Positions 36,050 to 39,648 of a stretch of DNA of 64,000 nt are shown here, piece by piece. Each line of letters starts with the position of its first letter. Within the stretch, counting starts at the first letter, position 1. The notes beneath the pieces were generated by a model. That model saw only the letters and a program-made list of their open reading frames with translations, did not search any database and was not told the DNA's origin. The position numbers and the translations under genes were made by a program. Origin of the DNA: an uncultured Christensenella sp. (GTDB taxonomy: Bacteria > Bacillota > Clostridia > Christensenellales > UBA1750); NCBI GenBank assembly GCA_948468595.1, contig CAOKIU010000002.1:1-64000 (forward strand), written 5' to 3'.

Positions 36050-36337
36050 TTACCGCCGCTCCGCTCTCTTACCCGTTTCAGCAAAGCCGGTGCTCAGCAG
36101 CGCGGCAACAGCCTGCATGGCCTCTCTCTCGTCCGCGCCGTTGACGGTGAGCGTCACGCGGTCGTGAATGCCCACGCCCAAGGAAAGCACGCCCATCATG
36201 GATTTGGCGTTGATGATCTTGGTTCCCTGTTCAATGAGGATCTGCGCGCGGTAACGGCAGGCCACCTGGACCAACTGGGCCGCGGATTTGGCGTCCAGGC
36301 CGTCGCGGTTGGCGATGACGATGTCTTGCTCTAGCAT
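36050..36337 (-). CDS. HPr-family protein of Crh type (no catalytic His15)
   Basis: A 95-residue HPr-fold protein. The phospho-site motif is NRDGLDAKSA instead of GLHARPA: position 15 is Asp, not the phosphorylatable His, so phosphotransfer in a PTS is not expected. The regulatory site NAKSMMGVLSLGV is intact, with Ser46, the target of HPr kinase/phosphatase. This combination is that of B. subtilis Crh, which has Gln15 and Ser46 and works as CcpA co-repressor; the residue here (Asp15) differs. It is 7 bases downstream of whiA, matching the rapZ-yvcK-whiA-crh cluster of Firmicutes. HPr kinase itself is not in the window. AAAGGGG precedes the ATG. Confidence 0.85.
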   Translation of the reverse strand: MLEQDIVIANRDGLDAKSAAQLVQVACRYRAQILIEQGTKIINAKSMMGVLSLGVGIHDRVTLTVNGADEREAMQAVAALLSTGFAETGKRAERR

Positions 36338-36344
36338 TATCGAG

Positions 36345-37295
36345 TCATTCCCCTTTCTGCTTTTGCATCTCCTGGGCTATTTCGATCAGTTTCCGCAGCC
36401 GGTGATTGACCGCGCTCTTGCTGATGGGGGGAATAAAGCACTCCCCCAGTTCCTTCATGGGCGTCTCCGGGTATTCCATCCGCTTTTCAGCCATCTGACG
36501 CAGGTGGCGGGGCAGCTTGGCAAAGCCCATCTTCTCTTCAATGATGCGGATGGCGTCAATCTGCCGCTGCGAGGCGTTCATCGTCTTGTCGACGTTGGCG
36601 CTGTCGCAGTTGGTGGCGCGGTTGACGTTGTTGCGCATGTTTTTTTTGATGCGCACATCCTCAATGGCAAAGAGCGCCTTGTGCGCGCCCATGCGATTTA
36701 AACACTCTACGATGGATTCGCTCTCCTTCAAGTATATCACAAAGCTCTCCCGCCTGGGAATCATCTTGGCGGGGATTTCCAGCTTATTTATAAAATTAGA
36801 CAGCGATTGCGCGTATTCCTCCGAGGCGGAGGTGATTTCCAGGTGATAGGCCTTGCCGGGGTCGGATAAGGTGCCGGTGGCCAGGAACGCGCCGCGCAGG
36901 TAGGCATGGCGGCAGCAGGTCTTGCGCAGGAGCGAGAGCGGCACCGCCCGGCTGATGCGCACACCCTCCTCCGTCTCCCGCATCAGCCCCGTCTCCATCA
37001 GGATCTCGGGCACGCGGCAGTCCTGACCCAGCACCACGTGGTATACGTTGCGCTTGCCCAGGCGCTTGCGCAGCTGCGTGCGCACCTCCGGGCTTACGGC
37101 AAAGCACTCCTTGCACAGGGAGAAAATGCGCCGCGCCACCGCGGGGGATTCGGTGGTCATCACCATGGACTGGCCGCCCCGCTGGATGCGCAGCGTGCCG
37201 ATGCCATGGATGAAGGCGGCAAGCTCCGCCCGCTTGCAGCAGGGCTTATCGGCGATCTGGCACAGCTCCTGCTTGGTGTCCGACGAAAACGACAT
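36345..37295 (-). CDS. whiA: DNA-binding protein WhiA
   Basis: A 316-residue protein with the WhiA architecture: a LAGLIDADG-like N-terminal domain (residues about 1-220; MSFSSDTKQELC start, GAFLATGTLSDPGKAYHLEI in the middle, which lacks the catalytic residues of homing nucleases) and a C-terminal helix-turn-helix (about 225-310; LPRHLRQMAEKRM, PPISKSAVNHRLRKL). It affects cell division and chromosome organisation in Firmicutes. It starts 19 bases after the rapZ stop. The GAGAGAAGTGCC site is moderate. Confidence 0.96.
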   Translation of the reverse strand: MSFSSDTKQELCQIADKPCCKRAELAAFIHGIGTLRIQRGGQSMVMTTESPAVARRIFSLCKECFAVSPEVRTQLRKRLGKRNVYHVVLGQDCRVPEILMETGLMRETEEGVRISRAVPLSLLRKTCCRHAYLRGAFLATGTLSDPGKAYHLEITSASEEYAQSLSNFINKLEIPAKMIPRRESFVIYLKESESIVECLNRMGAHKALFAIEDVRIKKNMRNNVNRATNCDSANVDKTMNASQRQIDAIRIIEEKMGFAKLPRHLRQMAEKRMEYPETPMKELGECFIPPISKSAVNHRLRKLIEIAQEMQKQKGE

Positions 37296-37314: not shown

Positions 37315-38175
37315 TTATTTTTCCAGTACGGTATCCCGGTGCGATACGGCGCAGTGGAAGCCCGCCTGGTTTAGCCCCTGATAAATCTCCTGGGCCAGGC
37401 AAACGCTGCGGTGCTGGCCGCCGGTACAGCCGATGCCGATCACCAGCCGGTCCTTTCCCTCGGAGACGTAGTGCGGGATGAGGAACTTGAGCATATCCAG
37501 CGTCTTTTCCACAAAAATGCGGCTCTCGATAAAGCTCATCACATAAGCGCGCACCGGCTCGTCCGTGCCGTTCATGGGCCGCATCTCGGGGATGTAGAAG
37601 GGATTGGGGATGAACCGCACGTCCAGGATCAGATCCGCATCCTGCGGCAGGCCATGCTTAAACCCAAAGGAGAGAACGTTGACCGACAGCGCCTTATCCA
37701 CATCCCCGTCGCCGTAGAGGCGCAGCAGCGTCTCGCGCAGCTGCCGGGTGAGCATGGTGGTGGTATCGATGACGCGCGTGGCGCGCTGCTCCATGCCGCG
37801 CAGCATCTGCCGCTCTTTTTGAATGTTCTGGATCAGCATCGTGTCGCTGCCCATGGGATGGGCGCGGCGCGTCTCCTTGTAGCGGCGGATGAGCTCCTCG
37901 TCCGAGGCGTTGAGGTAGATGATGTCGTAATGGATGTCCATGCGCCGCAGCTCGTCCAGGGCGTCGTCCGTCTCCCCGAAAAACGCGCCGCTGCGCGTGT
38001 CAATGCCCAAGGCCACCTTATCGATCTCGCCGTCGTGATCCACGCACAGCTTCGCCATGTTGGGAATCAGCATCGGCGGCAGGTTGTCCACGCAGTAAAA
38101 CCCCATGTCCTCCAGCGCGTGCAGCGCCTGGGACTTGCCCGCGCCGGAAAGGCCCGTGACCACGACCAACTTCAT
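37315..38175 (-). CDS. rapZ: RNase adapter/nucleotide-binding protein RapZ (YvcJ)
   Basis: A 286-residue protein with Walker A TGLSGAGKSQALHALED near the N terminus, the DNLPP string, and the C-terminal domain with IGIGCTGGQHRSVCLAQEI. In Proteobacteria it presents GlmZ RNA to RNase E; in Firmicutes (YvcJ) it affects competence through unknown nucleotide-linked means. ATG 38175 has GAAGGAGCG upstream; an open frame continues upstream to 38511 in the DUF3788 gene, which is out of frame, and is rejected. In most Firmicutes yvcK follows rapZ; here whiA follows directly, so yvcK is missing or elsewhere. Confidence 0.95.
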   Translation of the reverse strand: MKLVVVTGLSGAGKSQALHALEDMGFYCVDNLPPMLIPNMAKLCVDHDGEIDKVALGIDTRSGAFFGETDDALDELRRMDIHYDIIYLNASDEELIRRYKETRRAHPMGSDTMLIQNIQKERQMLRGMEQRATRVIDTTTMLTRQLRETLLRLYGDGDVDKALSVNVLSFGFKHGLPQDADLILDVRFIPNPFYIPEMRPMNGTDEPVRAYVMSFIESRIFVEKTLDMLKFLIPHYVSEGKDRLVIGIGCTGGQHRSVCLAQEIYQGLNQAGFHCAVSHRDTVLEK

Positions 38176-38210
38176 ATCGCCCGCTCCTTCCACACTCTCT
38201 TCTTTCCCCG

Positions 38211-38624
38211 CTACCCTTGCAGCTTCCTTTTGAGGATCGCCGCAATGTCCCGTGCCTGCTCGGGGGTTGTCACGCGGTAGTGTATCCACCCGCCGTCGCC
38301 GCAGGGGTATCTGCGGTCGATGACCCCTTGGGCATAGGGGGAAAGCTGAGGGTAAACCTCGAAAAACTGCTCGTCCTTTAGGCGAACCATCACGGTAAAG
38401 GCCCCGTTTTCGGCAAATACATCGCAGACGTGCTTGTTCTTTTTGCGATGCTCCACGCCCCAGCCATAGTTCTTGCCGTAGGGAAAGCGGATGCTGGTCT
38501 GGGTGCTCCAATCCCTTTCCATCTTTTCGTTCAGCGCCGCAAACAGCGCGCCCGTCTCGCCGCAGACGGCCGCCATTTCCTCCCGCGTGGGCGGGGTCTG
38601 CTTGTCCAGCATTCTTTCGTACAT
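38211..38624 (-). CDS. DUF3788 family protein
   Basis: A 137-residue cytoplasmic protein with the DUF3788 pattern: a start MLDKQTPPTREE, a helical segment AALNEKMERDW, the hallmark YGKNYGWGVEHRKKNKHVC, FTVMVRL, and a C-terminal DGGWIHYRVTTPEQARD. The function is unknown; some relatives are described as YdhG- or phage-associated. AAGGGGG precedes ATG 38624; a longer frame to 38726 is rejected. It lies between murB and rapZ on the same strand, 28 bases after murB and 35 bases before rapZ, an unusual insertion in a conserved cluster. Confidence 0.75.
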   Translation of the reverse strand: MYERMLDKQTPPTREEMAAVCGETGALFAALNEKMERDWSTQTSIRFPYGKNYGWGVEHRKKNKHVCDVFAENGAFTVMVRLKDEQFFEVYPQLSPYAQGVIDRRYPCGDGGWIHYRVTTPEQARDIAAILKRKLQG

Positions 38625-38652: not shown

Positions 38653-39558
38653 TCAGTCCTCGCCCAGAATGCGCACCTCCGGCTCCAGGCGCACGCCAAA
38701 CTTTTCATACACCGTGCGCTGCACAAGCGCCATCAAGTCCAGCACGTCCTTGGCAGTGGCGTCGCCGAGGTTGACCAGGAAACCGGCGTGCATCTCGGAG
38801 ATCTGCGCCCCGCCCACGCGCGCGCCCTTAAGGCCCGCGTCCTGGATGAGCTTGCCGGCAAAGTATCCCTCCGGCCGCTTGAAAAAACTGCCCGCGGAGG
38901 GGAGCTTGAGCGGCTGCTTCTCGCGCCGGCGCCGGTTGTAATCCGCCATGCGCGCGGCGATCTCCTCCCGGCTGCCGGGCTCAAGGGCAAAGGTCGCCTC
39001 AAGGGCCACGGCTCCCAGGTCCATCAGCTTGGTATGGCGGTAGGACATCTCCATCTCCTCCCGGGTGAGGGAGGCGATTTCGCCCGTGGGCAGCAGCGCC
39101 CGCACGCTTTCCAGCACCTGGGAAATCTCCCCGCCATAGGCGCCCGCGTTCATGTACACGCCGCCGCCCACGCTGCCGGGTATTCCCTCGGCAAACTCCA
39201 GGCCCGCAAGGCCCGCCTCCTGCGCCGCGCATGTTACGGCGCCCATGCTCGCGCCCGCCTGGGCAAAGACGCGCGTGCCCTCGGCGCGCACGCAGGCAAA
39301 GTCCTCCCCCAGCACCAGCACCACGCCGCGGATGCCGCCGTCGCGCACCACCAGATTGCTGCCCCGGCCGATCACCGTCAGCGGCAGCGCGCGGTCTGCG
39401 CAAAGCAGCGCGACCTGCTCCACGTCGCGTACGCTCGCGGCAAAGATCACGCAGTCCGCGCAGCCGCCCACGCGCATCGTGGTCAGCCTCTTCATGGGCA
39501 CGTCCATCTCCACGCGGCCGTCAAGGTCCAGCGCCCGAAACAAATCCAAAACTTTCAC
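38653..39558 (-). CDS. murB: UDP-N-acetylmuramate dehydrogenase
   Basis: A 301-residue FAD enzyme that reduces UDP-GlcNAc-enolpyruvate to UDP-MurNAc with NADPH. FAD-domain motifs: TTMRVGGCADCVI, LPLTVIGRGSNLVVRDGGIRGVVL, and the second part GIPGSVGGGVYMNAGAYGGEI. The catalytic Ser is in SAGSFFKRPEGYFAGKLI. It lacks the Tyr/loop insert of the type I enzyme, so it is type II, normal for Firmicutes. The GTG at 39558 follows GAGG by 7 bases; the frame upstream to 39615 has no site. It heads the murB-DUF3788-rapZ-whiA-crh cluster. Confidence 0.95.
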   Translation of the reverse strand: MKVLDLFRALDLDGRVEMDVPMKRLTTMRVGGCADCVIFAASVRDVEQVALLCADRALPLTVIGRGSNLVVRDGGIRGVVLVLGEDFACVRAEGTRVFAQAGASMGAVTCAAQEAGLAGLEFAEGIPGSVGGGVYMNAGAYGGEISQVLESVRALLPTGEIASLTREEMEMSYRHTKLMDLGAVALEATFALEPGSREEIAARMADYNRRRREKQPLKLPSAGSFFKRPEGYFAGKLIQDAGLKGARVGGAQISEMHAGFLVNLGDATAKDVLDLMALVQRTVYEKFGVRLEPEVRILGED

Positions 39559-39648
39559 GTTCACACCTCGGTTATAATTTAAGTACAGTTTACCCCAAAC
39601 CGTCCAAATTTTCAAGAAGAACTCGCATGGCCGCGCGCCTGACCGGCT

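Follow-up and report, generated by a model that had tools for sequence, protein, structure and literature searches.

Phosphorylation of HPr at Ser46 is usually explained within a network centred on the PTS and on CcpA, and Bacillus has Enzyme I, EIIC and CcpA. Under sugar plenty, HPrK of Bacillus phosphorylates Crh at Ser46 and Crh-Ser-P works with CcpA, while unphosphorylated Crh inhibits methylglyoxal synthase; residue 15 of Crh is given as Gln for Parageobacillus (PMC9631020). In B. subtilis, crh belongs to a glmR-whiA-crh operon with glmR upstream of whiA (PMC10714963). HPrK without CcpA is already known from Gram-negative bacteria (PMC6916182), and in Clostridium ultunense HPr-like proteins accompany a complete PTS (PMC5924567). 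HPr variants with Asp in place of His15 have been made in the laboratory in PTS organisms (E. coli 1cm2, 1cm3 and 3ccd, by structure titles; T. saccharolyticum, PMC3526391). Titles of the E. coli structures also refer to a succinimide ring.

The window, a stretch of 64,000 nucleotides from an uncultured Christensenella sp. (contig CAOKIU010000002.1), contains a gene whose product is similar to Bacillus Crh in having an HPr fold, no His15, Ser46 within an HPrK motif and a gene position directly 3′ of whiA. It differs from Crh in that residue 15 is Asp rather than Gln and in that the source genome has no detected Enzyme I, PF02378 EIIC or CcpA-grade protein. It is like HPr (ptsH) in fold and length, but His15, Arg17 and Pro18 are absent and no Enzyme I was found in the genome. 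The laboratory His15Asp proteins share with it Asp15 on an HPr fold, whereas in the present protein Asp15 occurs naturally, in a genome without a detected PTS. Xanthomonas and other Gram-negative bacteria likewise combine HPrK and HPr without CcpA, but Enzyme I and EIIA proteins remain in the Xanthomonas HPrK/HPr cluster (PMC6916182).

The HPr-like gene and its neighbours

The HPr-like gene occupies positions 36050..36337 on the minus strand and encodes an HPr/Crh-like protein of 95 aa (ORF translation, Pfam and congener comparison) that starts at an ATG codon and has the N-terminus MLEQDIVIANRDGLDAKSAAQ. Counting from Met1, residue 15 is Asp in GLDAK, encoded by GAC (36293..36295, minus strand), and residues 17 and 18 are Lys and Ser. 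Ser46, the expected HPrK site, is encoded by TCC (36200..36202, minus strand) and lies within NAKSMMGVLSLGV. The Pfam PTS-HPr model (PF00381) matches residues 2–81 with 84.4 bits (E 5.7e-24) against a curated cut-off of 23, so the match is not due to chance, and with the HPr fold it places the protein in the HPr superfamily. The combination of His15, Arg17 and Pro18 that marks the HPr phosphocarrier (ptsH) is replaced by Asp15, Lys17 and Ser18. A first-pass annotation, made from the sequence alone and giving no strand, had reported Asp15 and an intact Ser46 motif and had called the protein Crh-like; all three hold, the label resting on a non-His residue 15, the retained Ser46 motif with an HPrK in the genome, and a gene directly 3′ of whiA. 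The nearest NCBIfam model is PRK13782, which we take to be the Crh model; its score of 74.1 bits is under the equivalog cut-off of 123, a further difference from Bacillus Crh.

A congener (G020, same genus) has the same GAC codon within GLDAKSAA, which makes the sequencing error at codon 15 that the annotation had envisaged unlikely. Protein identity between the two is 80% over 86 residues, and the genes differ by dN 0.13 and dS 0.62 (NG86), a dN/dS of about 0.21; on this codon comparison the gene is under purifying selection. An AlphaFold model built from 16 orthologues has a mean pLDDT of 91.4 and places helix 1 at residues 16–26 and helix 2 at 47–52, so that residues 15 and 46 are each predicted to lie just before a helix. 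The best PDB matches of the model are HPr of Thermoanaerobacter (44% identity); comparison with 3le1 gives TM 0.88/0.96, and rank 12 among the matches is the Crh chain from the CcpA-Crh-DNA complex.

On the minus strand the HPr-like gene follows murB, a DUF3788 gene, rapZ and whiA, in that order. murB (38653..39615, the longest ORF, with a TTG start) scores 371 bits against NF010480 (cut-off 259), and the DUF3788 protein (38211..38624, start estimated within a listed ORF reaching 38726) matches PF12663 with E 6.6e-29. rapZ (37315..38175, start placed at the Met before the domain of a listed ORF reaching 38511) scores 346.8 bits against NF003828 (cut-off 244), and whiA (36345..37295) 306 bits against TIGR00647 (cut-off 44). 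The DUF3788 gene thus sits between murB and rapZ in the span 37315–38624, and the interval between rapZ and whiA is without a gene. The whiA stop codon is 7 bases from the start codon of the HPr-like gene, and this proximity suggests that translation of the two may be coupled; a run of purines at the 3′ end of whiA (36348..36356, minus strand), as read from the sequence, is a probable ribosome-binding site. In several families of the order a single cluster brings together hprK, murB, whiA and the HPr gene (e.g. G001, G143, G112, G074 and G034).

Enzyme I, HPrK and CcpA in the source genome and its order

Two HPr-family genes, both lacking His15, are found at E 0.001 in the source genome (2.48 Mb in 126 contigs, 97.6% complete). 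The second (L002 1450–1677, G000:C14) encodes 75 aa and has a Ser46 motif, DAKSILGIFSLD; it is a member of a third, short HPr class that in the order sample described below has Ser46 in 41/41 copies read and His15 in none. The annotation had proposed looking for a canonical His15 HPr elsewhere in the genome, and none was found at this completeness, neither of the two genes having His15. An HPrK, the absence of which the annotation would have counted against its own reading, is present: both Pfam domains are found, with GESGVGKSE as a Walker A motif by eye, in a frame of 268 aa that the contig end truncates. HPrK of the congener G020 is intact at 304 aa. Directly 3′ of the congener hprK (L074 3974–5888) is a ROK-family kinase gene, which plausibly fits glucose use without a PTS, and upstream are a gene of HAD type (by eye) and uvrC.

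No match to the Enzyme I N-domain PF05524 was found in the source genome at its 97.6% completeness (7/14 controls positive). The sole match to the PEP-utilizer C-domain is within a 916-aa frame, the size of which leads us to read it as pyruvate phosphate dikinase (PPDK). EIIC PF02378, the sole EII family covered, also gave no match. All eight LacI candidates were scored for CcpA, and the best reached 143.5 bits, the cut-off being 442, so no CcpA-grade protein was found; the gene of this best match adjoins a uronate isomerase gene (by eye).

The order sample comprises 151 genomes (the source and 150 others, with at least 90% completeness requested), with HPr-family matches in 89, Enzyme I in 15 and HPrK over cut-off in 90. 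From 118 match rows, 112 HPr copies were read in 85 of the 89 genomes, leaving out six weak rows (G008, G050, G015:C41, G065, G059:C10:21940 and G078). His15 is present in all 15 Enzyme I genomes and in 1 of 70 read genomes without Enzyme I (Fisher p 9e-16, a value that ignores relatedness). All 77 HPrK genomes read have a Ser46 copy, as does one (G070) of the eight without HPrK that were read; conversely, HPrK is found in 77 of the 78 read genomes with a Ser46 copy. The other 13 of the 90 HPrK genomes were unread, nine being without an HPr match and four having weak rows alone. B. subtilis has HPrK, and the HPrK search gave no match in the B. subtilis control, so calls of HPrK absence carry some doubt.

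The one His15 copy read in an order genome without Enzyme I (L045, G112) has the context GLHPKTSV, in which the neighbours of His15 are lost. Ten copies lack Ser46, and all ten have His15 and are in Enzyme I genomes; seven are in genomes without HPrK over cut-off, and the other three (G002, G007 and G088) are in HPrK genomes that also have a Ser46 copy. Nine HPrs adjacent to Enzyme I (L008, L009, L011, L012, L015, L017, L023, L033 and L037) have His15 with Arg or Lys in place of Ser46, and seven of these nine are in genomes without HPrK over cut-off. One is in the congener G085 (93% complete), which has no HPrK match and no whiA-type HPr copy; its HPr and Enzyme I pair (L015 460–1743) adjoins a gene for a Dak2-domain (DhaL-like) protein, and the group suggests a possible dihydroxyacetone-kinase relay. 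The best LacI protein of the 151 genomes scores 243.7 bits against the CcpA cut-off of 442 (10 to 13 candidates were scored in each LacI-rich genome, here and in the class sample below). A CcpA orthologue is accordingly taken as absent from the order sample at this level of similarity, where a divergent one could be missed.

Residue 15 in whiA-linked copies

Fourteen copies in the order adjoin Enzyme I (with L030 divergent from it and L037 about 850 bases away) and 53 follow whiA; one more, near a contig end with no whiA seen (L069), was assigned by sequence, giving 54 whiA-type copies. Three His15 copies (two in L038 and one in L041) are outside both sets. The Enzyme I-adjacent copies have His15, Arg17 and Pro18 in 14/14 and Ser46 in 5/14, and the whiA-type copies have Ser46, Gly49 and Gly67 in 54/54, Arg17 in 7 and Pro18 in 5. 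A mutated ptsH beside Enzyme I was considered as the origin of the non-His proteins and rejected: the 14 Enzyme I-adjacent copies form a separate set, and the long non-His copies are behind whiA.

The survey of residue 15 in relatives that the annotation had called for finds 13 amino acids among the 54 whiA-type copies (K12 D7 R6 N6 T6 S5 Q4 L2 G2 H1 A1 E1 I1). Eight copies have alignment gaps shortly before residue 15; the 46 gap-free copies have 12 amino acids (K12 R6 N6 D5 S5 Q4 L2 T2 H1 A1 E1 I1). The family of the source genome (f1) has D2 N4 E1. Asp15 is present on three branches (f1, f15 and f18) and perhaps on two more (f26 and f27, where the alignment is gapped). Residue 15 is steady in some families (Lys in 9/10 in f25, Arg in 4/4 in f20), so local constraint is possible there.

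Parsimony steps were counted for each HPr column on a WhiA tree of 53 tips (one WhiA being a 145-aa fragment). Column 15 has 26 steps, which ranks 14 of 82 (tied) against a median of 16; columns 17 and 18 have 27 and 26, and columns 46, 49 and 67 none. Helix capping is structurally easy for Asp, Asn, Ser, Thr and Gly, which make up a fraction of 0.49 in column 15. Other variable columns have 0.45–0.70, so helix capping is not specific to column 15, and selection for such residues at this site was dropped as an explanation and kept as a weak structural remark.

Beyond the order, 92 copies were read in a class sample of 195 genomes, at the best-scoring 90 of the listed places, a choice biased to canonical HPr. 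Seventeen of these follow whiA, nine with His15 and eight without (Q3, R, Y, T, E and N); the whiA-linked gene is therefore not always Crh-like. The simplest reading of these sequences is that His15 has been repeatedly lost from the whiA-linked gene. The Glu15 copy (L281, G329; GLEARPVA) is from another family of the class. None of the 195 genomes passes the CcpA cut-off of 442 bits, and 22 have LacI-type proteins at 300–376 bits. In a scan of named genomes, His15 is present at 78 of 80 loci among the matches listed (mostly Proteobacteria), the other two having Gln (L194, Melghiribacillus) and Asn (L127).

Asp15 and a proposed serine switch

We favour, with a probability of about 0.8, the reading that the protein is a Crh-like HPrK substrate whose PTS face decayed after loss of Enzyme I, and that Asp15 is one tolerated residue before helix 1. 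Once Enzyme I was lost, the face that contacts Enzyme I and EII (residues 15–18) would have been released from selection and would have drifted, with Asp just before helix 1 as one tolerated outcome. By extension from Bacillus, an abundance of glycolytic intermediates would lead HPrK/phosphorylase to phosphorylate Ser46, and binding to a partner would change in the Ser-P form. What we infer here is the phosphorylation, what triggers it metabolically, the sequence of losses and the partner. The Ser46 step is likely, since HPrK and the HPr-like protein are both present and the site is invariant in the alignment; the CcpA step of the Bacillus scheme is unlikely in the source genome. Asp15 need not block the switch, since His15Asp HPr of other species is still phosphorylated at the serine in vitro (PMC3526391).

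The first-pass annotation had taken Asp15 for a permanent mimic of phospho-His15 that makes the protein a constitutively charged signal or a dedicated co-repressor. Asp is indeed used in the laboratory as a phospho-mimic at His15 (PMC3526391), the two members of the genus that carry the gene (G000 and G020) both retain it, and across the order it is seen on three to five branches. Orthologues, however, show Asn, Glu, Lys, Arg, Leu or Ala at the same site, among the 13 residues counted there, and in the protein itself the neighbouring Arg17 and Pro18 are lost as well. The genome yielded none of the components able to write or read phospho-His (Enzyme I, PF02378 EIIC or a His15 HPr); as the enzyme producing phospho-His15 is among them, there seems to be nothing for Asp15 to mimic. 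The published His15Asp HPr, moreover, relieves catabolite repression, and mimicry of phospho-His at residue 15 is expected to make CcpA binding weaker, not stronger (PMC3526391). The residue range in column 15 and this phenotype lead us to discard the mimic as very improbable, and, with no CcpA-grade protein detected in the genome, neither a constitutive signal nor a dedicated co-repressor is supported.

A functional Asp15 of another kind, re-selected in each lineage as a contact to a new partner such as a LacI-type regulator or an enzyme, would account for the family-level fixation of Lys in f25 and Arg in f20, and unphosphorylated His15 of HPr is said to aid CcpA binding (PMC3526391). Term look-ups in two further papers gave no CcpA contacts of HPr residue 15 (PMC4591507) and nothing on Crh or His15 (PMC2405797). 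Column 15 is nonetheless among the faster-changing columns and this system has no known partner, and we regard such re-selection as unlikely. That the gene is simply a decaying ptsH remnant agrees with the disappearance of both Enzyme I and His15, and with the His15 kept in 9/17 whiA-linked copies of the class, which may point to an ordinary HPr as the earlier state of the locus. It is hardly credible, however, given the invariance of Ser46, Gly49 and Gly67 in the whiA-type set, the low dN/dS and the near-constant company of HPrK in genomes with a Ser46 copy.

The Crh-like HPrK substrate with a decayed PTS face leads to a broader and more tentative proposal, to which we give somewhat less than even odds: that the HPrK-Crh serine switch outlived the PTS and CcpA in many families of the order and acts on other effectors, for example methylglyoxal synthase (as for B. 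subtilis Crh) or another LacI-type protein. The order would then be a natural separation of the two sites of HPr, in which Enzyme I keeps His15 and HPrK keeps Ser46, each site decaying without its enzyme. A literature search, weak evidence on such a point, found no published account of an HPrK-Ser46 pair without Enzyme I and CcpA. The interest of the locus is the persistence of this pair without detectable Enzyme I and CcpA, and not Asp15. The decay of His15 and of Ser46, each in step with its own enzyme, provides a comparative test of the surface that each enzyme reads. What the serine switch does alone can be asked in a lineage that keeps the kinase and its substrate, in one gene cluster in several families, without detectable Enzyme I or recognisable CcpA.
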